A stretch of DNA of 33,673 nt from Clostridiaceae bacterium (GCA_012735465.1 JAAYHJ010000032.1:1-33673), one strand, 5' to 3'; positions 20,741 to 32,335 are shown, counted from the first letter of the stretch. Numbers and translations are program-made. The notes: a model not told the origin generated them from the letters alone.

Positions 20741-20769
20741 AAAGAGGCTGATTGTTCAGCCTCTTTTTT
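20741..20769 (+). terminator. Terminator of the liv operon
   Basis: Stem AAGAGGCTG/CAGCCTCTT with a 6-nt loop and a T6 tail, 9 nt past the livF stop. Confidence 0.9.
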
Positions 20770-20834: not shown

Positions 20835-21494
20835 TCACACATGAAACCGTTTGACAATCTCTCGCCAAAGATTTTTCCCTTCAAATACTATTTGCACAAC
20901 GCAAGTAACTACACTGACGGCCATACAAAATAGTGTGGGTAAGACCACTGATATCAGTCCTGTAAAATAAAACACGATGGGAACTATGCAAAATAGTAAA
21001 TTTGCTATCAAATATACGCCATAATCCTCCGTCGGAATCTTTTTCACTTTAACAATTATGGTAAGCGACAATATCGCCACCGTACAGGAAATAGGAATAA
21101 AAAAGTTCAATGACCAACCCGTCCAGCCGATCAAAAAATCCAGAGCAATAAACATCAGGGAAAGCGATACTACCTGAAAAGTAATGCTTTTTAAAAGGTT
21201 CCCTCGCCGTTTAATGACAGCAATGATACTAATCCAAAAACAGATAATGCCGAACACTACAAAAACTGACCAATATCCAGATTGGGGTAGCATAAGATTT
21301 ATGCCCACGCAAATAATTCCACCAGATAGAGTAAGTGCAGTAAGTATCTTAAAGATAAGCTGGTATTGCCTGTAGACCGTCGGAATTTTGGGATAAAGAG
21401 CTTCCCCAACGTCTCCTATTAATGGATTTTGGCACAATGGGCATACTTTATTATCACCCCGAACCGTTACATTGCATTGATTACATTGACTCAT
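20835..21494 (-). CDS. Zinc-ribbon membrane protein (DUF6320-like)
   Basis: A 219-residue protein. The N-terminal 25 residues form a zinc ribbon (CNQC and CPLC, Cys4, Cys7, Cys18, Cys21), followed by a short linker and about six membrane helices, and the C-terminal tail is basic. This layout matches the uncharacterised DUF6320 group, which is commonly adjacent to an acyltransferase like the next gene upstream. It is the third gene of a minus-strand module (esterase, acyltransferase, this protein), separated from the acyltransferase by 35 nt with its own GGAGG. No catalytic motif is visible. It may be a membrane platform for the two enzymes; that is inference. The gene lacks an obvious terminator of its own. 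Confidence 0.78.
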   Translation of the reverse strand: MSQCNQCNVTVRGDNKVCPLCQNPLIGDVGEALYPKIPTVYRQYQLIFKILTALTLSGGIICVGINLMLPQSGYWSVFVVFGIICFWISIIAVIKRRGNLLKSITFQVVSLSLMFIALDFLIGWTGWSLNFFIPISCTVAILSLTIIVKVKKIPTEDYGVYLIANLLFCIVPIVFYFTGLISVVLPTLFCMAVSVVTCVVQIVFEGKNLWREIVKRFHV

Positions 21495-21529
21495 ACGAAA
21501 ATATAGCCTCCCACAATAATATCTTTTTC

Positions 21530-22777
21530 TTATTCATTCTCCACGTTATTAGAAGATATTTCTACCGCAATGCCCATTTGCACAAGCATACGAAAAAAAT
21601 ACTGTTGGATATCTGCACTAATAAATCGAGATGTAAAGCTGATACTAAGACAATTTTCAAAGGAACAGACGCACACCTGCATGGAATCGGTAGCCGAACA
21701 GACATCAAACGAACGAATGTAGTCTGTTCCAAAGGAGACGTTAATTATTCCGATGTTAGACAAGGCTGCCGTAACCTTGCGCCGCGACAGCAGATACGCT
21801 GTACGCATAACAATGTTTTTAACTGGCAACGGAACAATTCGGGCAAAAACATTATGCTCCAATGCTGAAAAACGGTTTAAATCTGAATATAATCGTTCCG
21901 GCTCTAACCCTTCCTTTAATTGTTTTCCGATTTTTTGTATGATGTCCTCCAATGTGCCGCTTTCAGTGGAAAAATCGTATTCAACATGTACCAAACCGAA
22001 AAAGTTTCGCGCAGTCAGGGAAGGGAAAAAGCTTCGAAGGTTTACCGGAATGGCAATGACAACCGGCTTTCTTTTGGCACGAACAGACATATTAGAACCA
22101 ATTGCCTTAATAAGGCAAGCGCATAGAAAAACGGTTATGGTAGCACCGTACCCTTTTGCAATGCGAAGCACTTGATCTACAGGCACATGGCCGGTAATCA
22201 GTTTCAAACGATTTTCAGCGACTTTTGCGCCCTTTATCTTATAGCTGTTAGGTCGGGGGACTGCTTTAGAATGGTTCTTATCATCATAATATGTGGCAAA
22301 GCTGTCATTACTCATTTGTGTGTGCGATGCATTAATGAAAAGCGAAGGCGCAGAAACCCCATGGGCAAGGGTTAGGTATTTCGTAATCAATGCGGTTAAA
22401 AACACAGCAGCGCCCTTGCCGTCAGCAATCACATGAAACATCTCAAGGTTCACCCTGTTTTTAAAATAGGTGACCTCATATAAAAGCCCCTTATTTGATT
22501 TGCAGTAAATCGCTGAACACGGCGGCTTGTATTCCTCCCTTACGACAGGCTTAAGATCGGTGCTGTCGAGATAATACCAGAAAAGCCCCCTCCGCATCAC
22601 ACATTGATATACCGGAAACATAGCAGCAGTTTCGTTGAGCGCCTGCTGGAGTATATGCGCATTTACAGGCTCCGTCAACTCACAGCTCAGCCGGAACACC
22701 TGTGTGTCGCTGCCATACGCGGCGGCAGGAAATATTTTAGCGGCGTTGTCAAGCCTGATCCATTGTTTTGTTCGCAT
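21530..22777 (-). CDS. Condensation/alcohol-acetyltransferase-like acyltransferase
   Basis: A 415-residue protein of the CoA-dependent acyltransferase superfamily (CAT/condensation/AATase fold). The catalytic HxxxDG motif is HVIADG (His115, Asp119), with Phe in place of a first His. The N-terminal WIRLDNAAKIFPAAAYGSDTQVFRLSC and the RGLFWYYLD stretch recur in a Firmicutes family annotated as alcohol acetyltransferase-like. The second half has ITVFLCACLIKAI and AIPVNLRSFFPSLTARNFFG, the usual second lobe. It probably moves an acyl group onto a hydroxyl or amine; neither substrate is known. AGGA 9 nt before the ATG supports the start. It lies 33 nt after the esterase gene and 35 nt before the membrane-protein gene, so the three are likely one operon. 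Confidence 0.8.
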   Translation of the reverse strand: MRTKQWIRLDNAAKIFPAAAYGSDTQVFRLSCELTEPVNAHILQQALNETAAMFPVYQCVMRRGLFWYYLDSTDLKPVVREEYKPPCSAIYCKSNKGLLYEVTYFKNRVNLEMFHVIADGKGAAVFLTALITKYLTLAHGVSAPSLFINASHTQMSNDSFATYYDDKNHSKAVPRPNSYKIKGAKVAENRLKLITGHVPVDQVLRIAKGYGATITVFLCACLIKAIGSNMSVRAKRKPVVIAIPVNLRSFFPSLTARNFFGLVHVEYDFSTESGTLEDIIQKIGKQLKEGLEPERLYSDLNRFSALEHNVFARIVPLPVKNIVMRTAYLLSRRKVTAALSNIGIINVSFGTDYIRSFDVCSATDSMQVCVCSFENCLSISFTSRFISADIQQYFFRMLVQMGIAVEISSNNVENE

Positions 22778-22810
22778 TGTACATCATCCTTTAAATCCTT
22801 ACCTTATGGT

Positions 22811-23731
22811 TTATATCGTTTTGTCTCCTACGAGTTCTCCGTCTAAAAAGGCGTTGATTACTTCATAGCAAAGCCGAACATGCGCAAACCTCATGGGAAG
22901 GGAAAAAAAGCCGTGCAGCGCATCCTTCATGCGCACAATATTCACCGAATTCCCAAAACGCCGGAGCTTTTCCCCGTAAGCCTCCCCCTCGTCACGCAGT
23001 GGATCGTATTCGGCAGTAATAATGAGGGTTTCGGGTTGTCCGTGCAAATTTTCCGAAAGCAGAGGCGCAAGATAGGGGCTTGTACGGTCCTTTTCGTCAG
23101 GCGCGTAAAGATCCATATAATCGCAAATCTTCTTTGAAGTCAGCAAATAATTGGTTCCGTATTCTGTCACCGACGGGAACGGTGAATTGCTTGTGTGGTC
23201 ATGATAGGTCAGCGGATATAATAGGATTTGTTTGTTTACATGAAATTCTCCGCGTTCTACTGCCAAAAGGCTCACCGCCGCCGCAAGGTTTCCACCGGCA
23301 CTATCACCCATCAGCACAACGTCCTCACGGCTTAGATGCAGTTCTCTCGCAACAGCGTAGCAATCCTCCAACGCACAAGGGAAGCGGTATTCCGGCGCCA
23401 GACGGTATTCCAGGGAATATACATGCCGTCCTGTCTGTGTTGCAAGATCGGCACAAGTTCTAGCATAGCTGTCCGTATTGCCCGTAACCCATCCACCACC
23501 ATGAAAAAACAATATGATTTCCTCGGACCGCATTTCGGCAGGCGGGAAAACACGAACAGGCAGTTCATAATCTATGTAATCAATGTTATGCTCCCAAAGA
23601 TAATAGTGTGCTTTTAACGGTGGGTGAATAATATTATTGAATATTCGATGAAACTTGTAGTTTTCTTTGATGTTATAATCCGCATAGGATAGCGCTTTCA
23701 AGGCAGCCATCATAAATTTATTTATCGCCAT
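22811..23731 (-). CDS. Alpha/beta-hydrolase, HSL-type esterase
   Basis: A 306-residue cytosolic esterase of the hormone-sensitive-lipase family (Abhydrolase_3). It has the oxyanion-hole motif HGGGW (77-81), YRLAPEYRFPCALED, the nucleophile elbow GDSAGGN (Ser144), the acid in EYDPLRD (Asp243), and the catalytic His273 in ALHGFF. There is no signal peptide. AAGGTGAGG precedes the ATG. It is first in the three-gene module and has a good promoter upstream. Such enzymes hydrolyse short- to medium-chain esters. Next to an acyltransferase it might remove, or supply, the acyl group the partner handles; this is inference from position. Confidence 0.88.
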   Translation of the reverse strand: MAINKFMMAALKALSYADYNIKENYKFHRIFNNIIHPPLKAHYYLWEHNIDYIDYELPVRVFPPAEMRSEEIILFFHGGGWVTGNTDSYARTCADLATQTGRHVYSLEYRLAPEYRFPCALEDCYAVARELHLSREDVVLMGDSAGGNLAAAVSLLAVERGEFHVNKQILLYPLTYHDHTSNSPFPSVTEYGTNYLLTSKKICDYMDLYAPDEKDRTSPYLAPLLSENLHGQPETLIITAEYDPLRDEGEAYGEKLRRFGNSVNIVRMKDALHGFFSLPMRFAHVRLCYEVINAFLDGELVGDKTI

Positions 23732-23752: not shown

Positions 23753-23781
23753 ATTTTACTATTTATAGACCGTCTTGTCAA
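23753..23781 (-). promoter_or_regulatory. Promoter of the esterase-acyltransferase module
   Basis: On the minus strand a perfect -35 TTGACA (23776-23781) and a -10 TAAAAT (23753-23758) are 17 bp apart. The -10 lies about 20 nt before the esterase start codon. Confidence 0.7.
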
Positions 23782-23821: not shown

Positions 23822-23850
23822 TTGACAATCATCCGAATCTGTGTTATATT
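23822..23850 (+). promoter_or_regulatory. Promoter of the cold-shock gene
   Basis: TTGACA (23822-23827), 17 bp, TATATT (23845-23850). This is a near-consensus sigma-A promoter, firing away from the esterase promoter, with 40 bp between the two -35 boxes. It leaves a leader of about 120 nt before the cold-shock ATG. Confidence 0.75.
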
Positions 23851-23879: not shown

Positions 23880-23941
23880 TCACATATTTTTGTAAACCAT
23901 TAATTCATTGATGTTTTACAAAAATATGTGATTTTTGTTTT
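23880..23941 (+). promoter_or_regulatory. Leader hairpin with U-rich tail, attenuator-like
   Basis: Positions 23880-23896 pair perfectly with 23915-23931 (17 bp, AT-rich, 18-nt loop). The 3' arm is followed by TTTTTGTTTTATT. It lies between the promoter and the cold-shock start codon, so it would terminate or slow transcription before the gene. Cold-shock mRNAs often have long structured leaders; this one is weak enough in GC to be temperature sensitive. Confidence 0.6.
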
Positions 23942-23978: not shown

Positions 23979-24190
23979 ATGAATAATGGTACAGTAAAAT
24001 GGTTTAATTCTGGAAAGGTTTTGGCTTCATCACAAACAATGCAAGCGGTGAGGATTTATTTGTGCATTTTTCAGCGATTGTATCAACTGGATATAAGTCT
24101 TTGAGTGAAGGACAAAAAGTTACATTCAGTATAGAAGCTGATCCCAGAAACAGTCGCAGACTTCGTGCTGTCAATGTTTGCGTAGTGTAA
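23979..24190 (+). pseudogene. Cold-shock protein gene with a one-base frameshift
   Basis: Starts at an ATG 8 nt after GGAGG and reads [13 protein letters not shown], the Csp start. Near 24017-24022 one base is missing. In the next frame the rest is intact: [20 protein letters not shown], then [20 protein letters not shown] and RRLRAVNV to a TAA. The total length of 212 nt is one short of a multiple of three. With one base restored it would be a normal 70-residue nucleic-acid-binding Csp with both RNP motifs (GKGFGFI and LFVHFSAI). As written, translation goes out of frame after about 14 residues. Promoter, leader, ribosome-binding site and terminator are all intact, so this is a recent mutation or a sequence error. 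The usual cspA-type name is not certain. Confidence 0.85.
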
Positions 24191-24213
24191 CGCCGCGGAA
24201 ATATGATTAATTC

Positions 24214-31192: not shown

Positions 31193-32335
31193 TTAAATCT
31201 TCAAATATTCATACAGCCTATAAATGAATACTGCCGTTTCGGCCCTTGTCGTATATTGGTTAGGGTTAATCCTATTGTCGCTTCCCTTTACAAGCTCATG
31301 TTCTACAAAAGTTGCAAGGGCTGTTTTTGCATAATCTGCAATCAAATCACGATCATCAAATTTATTTAACACTTGTATATCAATACCGTCTTCAAATAAA
31401 CCTTTATCCTTTATCACCCGGTACGCTATAACAAACATATCCTGCCGGGTTATGGATTCTTCAGGATTAAACTTATTATTGCCAATACCGCTTATCAACC
31501 CGAGTTTTTTTGCTATTCCTATCTCATTGTAATAGTACTTGTCCGGCTGTACATCGGAAAAATTATCATCTACATTTGAGGTCAGGCCTAACATTCTTAC
31601 CAATAAAACTATAAAATCTGCTCTTTTTATATTTAATTGAGGACTGAAGGTTGTATTTGATGTTCCTCTTATAATTCCTTTTTGTGCAAGATAATTTATT
31701 TCATCTTTTGCCCAATCATAACCTGAAAGGTCGTTAAACATTAATATATCTACAGTATCCGCCGGTTCTGGCGGTGTTTCCTGTTTGTCTCCATTATTAC
31801 CTCTATCACCGGCATCATTGCTATCGCCTGTGCTTCCTCCATGACCGCCTTGTTGCCCCGTTGATTTATCTATTTTTACTGCTCCGTTTTCAACGGTTAC
31901 AGGTATGTTTTTTGCATCAAAATCCACAAAATCCACTTCTTTTACTTGTATATCTGCAGTTCCTTCATTTCCTATGGCTATAAAACTAATGCTACACAAT
32001 ACTCCACCGCTTTTAATAGGATCCAGAGTCATAAAGCCCATTCTAACAGTATCCGGTCTATAGTTTTGATTTACAAGCGGCGTTGCATTTTCTATTATAC
32101 TTCCGGCATCACACGAGATGAGTTCAAGCTTTGTATTATCATAGGTAATATTGAAAGTACCCGCGCAGACATTTGAATTTTCCGACAGTATAACATCAAC
32201 CTTTACCGTATCCCCTGCTTTAACCGTTGCACCATTAACTTTCATAACAACATGGTTTTCCTGCGCAAAAGCTGTTCCTAAGGAAAATGTAATAACCATA
32301 ATTATTAAGATTGTCGTACACAGAGCATGTTTCAT
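31193..32335 (-). CDS. Cohesin-like plus triple-SLH surface anchor
   Basis: A 380-residue exported protein. A signal peptide (1-24, AFA before the cut) is followed by a cohesin-like domain at about 28-155 (MKVNGATVKAGDTVKVDVILSENSN, FNITYDNTKLELISCDAGSI, GVLCSISFIAIG). A Gly/Asp/Glu/Pro-rich linker follows (157-195). Three SLH domains then run at about 199-245, 259-310 and 325-380 (the TRAE variant of the SLH TRAE motif appears in the last, ITRQD in the second). Cohesins bind dockerins; with SLH domains this is the plan of small cellulosome anchors such as OlpA of Clostridium thermocellum. AAGGAG is 10 nt before the ATG. It follows a surface-protein fragment by 5 nt and precedes the exporter operon in the same direction. 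Confidence 0.87.
   Translation of the reverse strand: MKHALCTTILIIMVITFSLGTAFAQENHVVMKVNGATVKAGDTVKVDVILSENSNVCAGTFNITYDNTKLELISCDAGSIIENATPLVNQNYRPDTVRMGFMTLDPIKSGGVLCSISFIAIGNEGTADIQVKEVDFVDFDAKNIPVTVENGAVKIDKSTGQQGGHGGSTGDSNDAGDRGNNGDKQETPPEPADTVDILMFNDLSGYDWAKDEINYLAQKGIIRGTSNTTFSPQLNIKRADFIVLLVRMLGLTSNVDDNFSDVQPDKYYYNEIGIAKKLGLISGIGNNKFNPEESITRQDMFVIAYRVIKDKGLFEDGIDIQVLNKFDDRDLIADYAKTALATFVEHELVKGSDNRINPNQYTTRAETAVFIYRLYEYLKI

Follow-up and report, generated by a model that had tools for sequence, protein, structure and literature searches.

A three-gene module composed of an HSL (family IV) esterase, a putative O-acyltransferase, and a DUF6320 membrane protein is strongly supported as a real unit by its conserved gene order, its tight or overlapping junctions, fusions that link all three proteins, and the replacement of the esterase by an unrelated one, in agreement with the initial annotation of the locus. 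The pairing of the acyltransferase with DUF6320 is obligate, and the esterase is a frequent but non-obligate partner of the pair. We propose, with confidence evenly balanced between acceptance and doubt, that the module may run a membrane-docked cycle in which a lipophilic alcohol gains and loses an O-acyl group, resembling the Atf2/Say1 cycle of yeast.

Organization of the locus

The window, i.e., the whole stretch of DNA analyzed here (33,673 nt; Clostridiaceae bacterium, GCA_012735465.1, JAAYHJ010000032.1:1-33673), contains the trio as an operon of about 2.9 kb. The initial annotation had described three same-strand genes with short gaps and one good promoter, and the coordinates and intact reading frames confirmed this arrangement. 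The gap between the esterase and acyltransferase genes is 33 nt, that between the acyltransferase and DUF6320 genes is 35 nt, and a Shine-Dalgarno-like sequence precedes each of the three start codons. The sigma-A-like promoter lies 21 nt 5' of the esterase start codon and is one of the two top-scoring promoter-like sites in the 6 kb scanned; it is predicted from its consensus match. The neighbors are a liv-type operon, which is convergent with the trio, and, upstream, a divergent and frameshifted cold-shock gene. A hairpin between the two convergent operons, read from the sequence and unlisted by the scan that gave the promoter, is possibly their shared terminator. The features are as follows.

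23753-23781, minus strand: predicted sigma-A-like promoter, TTGACA-17 nt-TAAAAT, 11 of 12 consensus matches
22811-23731, minus strand: HSL (family IV) esterase gene, first of the trio, 306 aa, intact
23492-23503, minus strand: oxyanion-hole motif HGGG, esterase residues 77-80
23294-23308, minus strand: nucleophile motif GDSAG, esterase residues 142-146, with Ser144
23003-23005, minus strand: Asp243 (in DPLRD), catalytic acid by homology
22913-22915, minus strand: His273 (in HGF), catalytic histidine by homology
21530-22777, minus strand: putative condensation-fold O-acyltransferase gene, second of the trio, 415 aa, intact
22724-22762, minus strand: family signature WIRLDNAAKIFPA near the acyltransferase N-terminus; L9 and P17 invariant, W6, D10, N11, and K14 at least 90% conserved
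22418-22435, minus strand: catalytic motif HVIADG, an intact HxxxDG, acyltransferase residues 115-120
20835-21494, minus strand: DUF6320 membrane protein gene, third of the trio, 219 aa, intact
21432-21485, minus strand: CxxC-CxxC zinc ribbon (C4, C7, C18, and C21), the four cysteines invariant in 60 aligned stand-alone members
20838-21395, minus strand: DUF6320 domain with six predicted transmembrane helices, both ends predicted cytosolic; D119, W127, and P134 invariant, S128 98% conserved
20742-20767, no strand assigned: hairpin between the liv and trio operons

Three further observations concern the rest of the window. The CspA-type cold-shock gene (23980-24191, plus strand) is frameshifted about 35-40 nt into its reading frame, with the remainder of the protein encoded in a different frame, which may reflect a pseudogene or a mistake in the assembly. 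Downstream of a good promoter (23822-23850) and ahead of the start of the cold-shock gene lies a long hairpin of 17 pairs plus 6 pairs (23880-23930, plus strand), and the 136-nt stretch containing it has a z-score of -4.6 against shuffled sequences. The hairpin resembles a structured 5' leader, and no Rfam family was matched there or elsewhere in the window. Finally, the gene at 31193-32335 (minus strand) encodes a surface anchor of the cellulosome type, with S-layer homology repeats and a single cohesin domain, which suggests that the host degrades plant fiber.

Conservation of the module

The acyltransferase-DUF6320 pair was found in about a quarter to a third of the sampled Clostridia genomes, and also in Bacilli, Mycoplasmatota, and Treponema records. 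DUF6320 was present in 80 of the 291 genomes of the class, including the window's own genome, and in none of the five others of its family. The genome-neighborhood analysis suggested for DUF6320 in the initial annotation gave a uniform answer: all 42 copies in the 40 inspected loci (two loci held two copies each, and one copy was split by a broken frame) adjoin an acyltransferase or are fused to one. At L074:7476-8137 (genome G068), DUF6320 is split in two frames within an otherwise intact three-gene module. A reverse search from the acyltransferase, with one genome per species, yielded at least 567 relatives. The 80 best were retained, and DUF6320 was adjacent or fused in 78 of the 79 loci that could be judged. 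As these 80 were selected by similarity rank, the rates given here and below describe the closer relatives. The remote acyltransferase relatives L173-L176 had no DUF6320.

Pooling both sets of loci and dropping duplicates by acyltransferase sequence gave 127 loci, which are related by descent, so that the counts are non-independent observations. DUF6320 was adjacent to the acyltransferase in 115, fused to it in 6, and in neither position in 4 of the 125 loci that were complete at the 3' end. The case of orthologs that never co-occur, raised in the initial annotation as an objection, did not arise, since DUF6320 is adjacent or fused in 121 of these 125 loci. An apparent lack of DUF6320 by Pfam at L165, L167, L168, L169, L171, and L172 was rejected because a diverged zinc-ribbon membrane protein adjoins the acyltransferase there. 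Acyltransferase-DUF6320 fusions occur at L059, L064, L134, L151, L155, L159, and L162, and correspond to about four events (at least four changes) on a FastTree phylogeny of the 127 acyltransferases. Esterase-acyltransferase fusions occur at L165 (737 aa) and L168 (723 aa); both carry the motifs of both enzymes and have a DUF6320-like protein adjoining.

An HSL esterase lies directly upstream of the acyltransferase in 67 of the 127 loci. Further HSL esterases comprise four weak upstream matches, two downstream, and two fused to the acyltransferase, and in 35 loci no esterase of the HSL or pectinacetylesterase/Notum type (PAE, PF03283) was called beside the pair. The median gaps in this set are -4 nt between esterase and acyltransferase and +1 nt between acyltransferase and DUF6320. 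Co-divergence (r = 0.67-0.80) argues for the cycle proposed below, although it includes shared species history and partly reflects common descent. The Butyrivibrio clade has no HSL esterase beside the pair. In 13 loci, the gene directly after DUF6320 is of the PAE type, in every case without an accompanying HSL esterase, and the switch from HSL to PAE occurred once on the acyltransferase tree, confined to this one clade. The PAE-type protein is unrelated to the window esterase, lies after rather than before the pair, and, in those inspected, has no obvious signal peptide; it fills the place of the esterase in the Butyrivibrio-type operon. The strongest argument for ester hydrolysis as part of the pathway is the use of two unrelated esterases in the same operon. 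In two genomes (G149 and G076; L069 and L073), two acyltransferase-DUF6320 pairs lie about 10-14 kb apart, with no HSL or PAE esterase alongside.

Esterase

The window esterase belongs to Abhydrolase_3 (211 bits against a cut-off of 25), and HGGG, GDSAG, the aspartate, and the histidine all lie inside this domain, as in EST2-type HSL carboxylesterases. The description of a complete HSL-type esterase therefore stands. The nearest solved chains were 9ju4, 1jji, and EST2 (about 160 bits); unlike EST2-type enzymes, the window esterase shares its operon with an acyltransferase and a membrane protein. Its sequence shows neither an obvious signal peptide nor an obvious membrane helix. Against the steryl acetyl hydrolase family (Say1_Mug180, PF10340), it scored 19.5 bits, just under the cut-off of 21. 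The esterases of the more distant loci L064, L066, and L083 passed this cut-off at 62-80 bits (75-80 bits for L064 and L066), with the L083 gene located several kb away from the module.

Acyltransferase

The HxxxDG motif was found in 124 of the 127 members of the acyltransferase family, and the intact motif reported for the window protein was verified, with the fold assigned through a homolog. The window protein matched no Pfam family above cut-off and gave no match to AATase (PF07247), and a PDB sequence search produced no match with the single protein and chance-level matches with a profile. Its relatives L065, L066, L079, L162, and L171, on the other hand, passed the PF07247 cut-off (22 bits) at 26-34 bits. 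Since both PF07247 and PF10340 are passed at L066, this one operon combines DUF6320 with an acyltransferase of the AATase type and an esterase of the Say1 type. The natural acyltransferase-DUF6320 fusion L162 was modeled with a pLDDT of 92.3 and a pTM of 0.86. The best PDB matches of the model were NRPS condensation (C) domains, the trichothecene 15-O-acetyltransferase TRI3, PapA5, plant BAHD enzymes, and a mannosylerythritol-lipid acyltransferase; the E-values against TRI3, PapA5, BAHD, and C domains were 1e-13 to 1e-11. By homology to the modeled L162, the window acyltransferase probably adopts the condensation/PapA/BAHD fold. As amide-forming C domains share this fold, the ester chemistry is only inferred.

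DUF6320 membrane protein

The third protein is a full-length member of DUF6320 (PF19845; 184.5 bits against 29.9, model positions 1-186 of 186), a family without an assigned function, and a full-text literature search found no paper naming it. The window protein was modeled as a ribbon and exactly six helices (pLDDT 85.8), which agrees with the earlier description of a CxxC zinc ribbon fused to about six membrane helices. The mean number of lysine and arginine residues was 2.2-3.8 per predicted cytosolic loop or tail versus 0.5-0.9 per outer loop, which argues that both ends are cytosolic. This topology suits the fusions, where the N-terminus gives way to an enzyme that is presumably cytosolic and CoA-dependent. 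D119, W127, S128, and P134 group around the outer loop joining helices 3 and 4. Comparison of the model with PDB folds was uninformative (best E-value 1.4), and the role of DUF6320 is accordingly judged from its topology and fusions.

The ribbon was present in 110 of the 115 separate DUF6320 copies and in none of the seven fused to an acyltransferase. Its absence from every fused copy points to the ribbon as the probable membrane dock of the acyltransferase, in which case ribbon and covalent fusion would be alternative means of retaining the enzyme there. The fusion may, however, merely remove the N-terminus of DUF6320, and a few unfused copies (L066, L070, L072, and L080) also lack the ribbon.

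Base composition and probable horizontal transfer

The initial annotation had taken the trio to be richer in GC than the liv operon and had seen in this a sign of transfer. The first point held for the esterase (46.5%) and the acyltransferase (44.0%) compared with the liv genes (37-41%) but not for DUF6320 (38.8%), and other window genes reach 44%. With two of the three genes mildly GC-richer and the codon usage of the trio deviating no more than that of livK, base composition argues weakly for transfer, and the phyletic pattern is the better argument. A strong acyltransferase match was found in one of the seven genomes of the order, namely, the window's own; the nearest relative found is 50% identical; and the same trio occurs in records labeled Treponema, Bacilli, and Mycoplasmatota, some of which are metagenome bins with possibly misassigned labels. 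From this patchy distribution, horizontal transfer of the trio, undated, is likely. A complete trio is also borne by a 52-kb plasmid of Anaerotruncus colihominis (L183, NZ_CP094683.1), where a diacylglycerol-kinase-family gene follows it by 22 nt; this gene was rejected as a module partner, as it is not directly beside other modules. Matches in records named 'Bacteriophage sp.' were not accepted as phage genes, because the records are unannotated and the one opened is marked unverified.

Flanking genes

Among 95 flanking genes (the nearest gene on each side), no fourth partner or regulator recurred. The commonest flanking family was TraX, which was dismissed as a fourth partner because it accounted for just 4 of the 95 genes. 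When sought directly, a TraX-family membrane protein was seen immediately after DUF6320 in seven loci (L097, L104, L115, L095, L145, L098, and L140), most of them from the Herbinix/Mobilitalea clade. In two Butyrivibrio loci (L149:3338-5962 and L163:3278-5971), the gene immediately preceding the acyltransferase is of the GH120 glycosidase type. Since no flanking family recurs widely, the genome context does not name the alcohol.

Proposed function and comparison with known systems

All of the anatomy is compatible with the synthesis or editing of an acyl-ester at the membrane, as the initial annotation had suggested. In the cycle that we propose, the acyltransferase would move an acyl group, probably short and probably donated by acyl-CoA, onto the hydroxyl of a membrane-soluble alcohol such as a lipid, a glycolipid, or an amphipathic small molecule. 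DUF6320 would keep the acyltransferase at the membrane, by putative docking through the zinc ribbon or by fusion, and would bind, present, or hand on the lipophilic substrate. The HSL esterase (the PAE-type enzyme in Butyrivibrio) would cleave the same kind of ester, so that the acylated state is reversed, edited, or recycled; we infer that both enzymes act on the same ester. Several points weigh against the cycle. A synthase and a hydrolase of the same ester would be futile if co-expressed in an unregulated way, and the nearest flanking genes include no recurrent regulator. About a quarter of the loci have no recognized esterase beside the pair. In addition, the window proteins fall short of both yeast families, with no PF07247 match for the acyltransferase and a sub-threshold PF10340 score for the esterase.

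On the basis of shared components, we regard the yeast sterol acetylation cycle, in which sterols are acetylated by Atf2 and deacetylated by Say1 (PMC4076087), as the closest working analog, and the mycobacterial PapA/Chp systems as the second. In yeast, an alcohol acetyltransferase and a steryl acetyl hydrolase act on one lipophilic alcohol at the membrane, and bacterial relatives of both window enzymes exceed the cut-offs of the corresponding Pfam families, although the window's own proteins pass neither. Unlike the yeast system, the module is a bacterial operon with fusions among its relatives and a six-helix zinc-ribbon membrane partner, for which we know of no yeast counterpart.

In mycobacterial acyltrehalose synthesis, PapA3 performs the first acylation and the transesterase Chp2 then adds further groups (PMC4183827). 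The acyltrehalose and sulfolipid systems combine the same classes of protein as the module, i.e., a PapA- or condensation-fold acyltransferase, a Ser-Asp-His alpha/beta hydrolase, and an integral membrane protein (PMC4183827). This precedent raises the alternative of an assembly line, in which a lipid or glycolipid receives its first acyl group from the acyltransferase and further ones from the hydrolase, acting as a transesterase, and DUF6320 couples the process to export. The invariant DUF6320 residues on the predicted outer side of the membrane are translocator-like and would agree with such a role. We nevertheless consider it unlikely: no PKS, FadD-type, or MmpL-type gene was found among the 25 commonest families of the 95 nearest flanking genes, with the exception of one AMP-binding enzyme, and the hydrolase, which has no obvious signal peptide or membrane helix, is of a different family, closest to soluble HSL carboxylesterases. 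The carriers also differ, being Clostridia.

Similarly improbable as a general explanation is that the module modifies steroids, bile acids, or other toxic amphipaths with hydroxyl groups that come from the host or the diet, like the sterol-export cycle of yeast. Its attraction lies in the closest analog acting on sterols and in the esterase partners that match the steryl acetyl hydrolase family, and many of the carriers are gut Clostridia. Carriers such as Anaerocolumna sedimenticola, Mobilitalea sibirica, Herbinix hemicellulosilytica, and Sporobacter termitidis, however, are organisms from outside the vertebrate gut, and the cohesin-SLH gene of the window genome is typical of plant-fiber degraders. 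Gut bacteria do make short-chain 3-O-acyl bile acids, and the excerpted part of a review on bile acids names an enzyme for the succinyl ester and none for the short-chain esters of Christensenella (PMC11487544).

It appears very unlikely that the acyltransferase makes an amide (an N-acyl or amine conjugate), with the esterase processing something else. NRPS C domains are indeed among its best fold matches, but its family-level sequence matches are O-acyltransferases (AATase and PapA), esterase-acyltransferase fusions exist, and no carrier-protein or adenylation genes recur in the same set of flanking families. We likewise hold little belief in a functional acyltransferase-DUF6320 pair with the esterase as an adjacent, separate detoxification gene, since the two esterase-acyltransferase fusions, the overlapping or near-zero gaps, and the substitution of an unrelated esterase in the same operon speak against it, even though the esterase is missing in 35 loci and DUF6320 almost never is.

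Returning to the proposed cycle, a more specific form may be envisaged, tentatively and with more doubt than conviction, as a reversible lipid-acylation switch, in which DUF6320, as a putative new kind of membrane protein whose fold has no known relatives, uses the zinc ribbon to recruit an O-acyltransferase and supplies it with a lipophilic alcohol, and either of two unrelated esterases reverses the modification. A literature search for a precedent among acylated lipids of Butyrivibrio gave nothing useful. If the proposed cycle is real, an ester modification that is common among anaerobes has escaped notice, and a testable function could be assigned to DUF6320. The operon is small, conserved, and present in cultured organisms, and the proposal should thus be directly testable.
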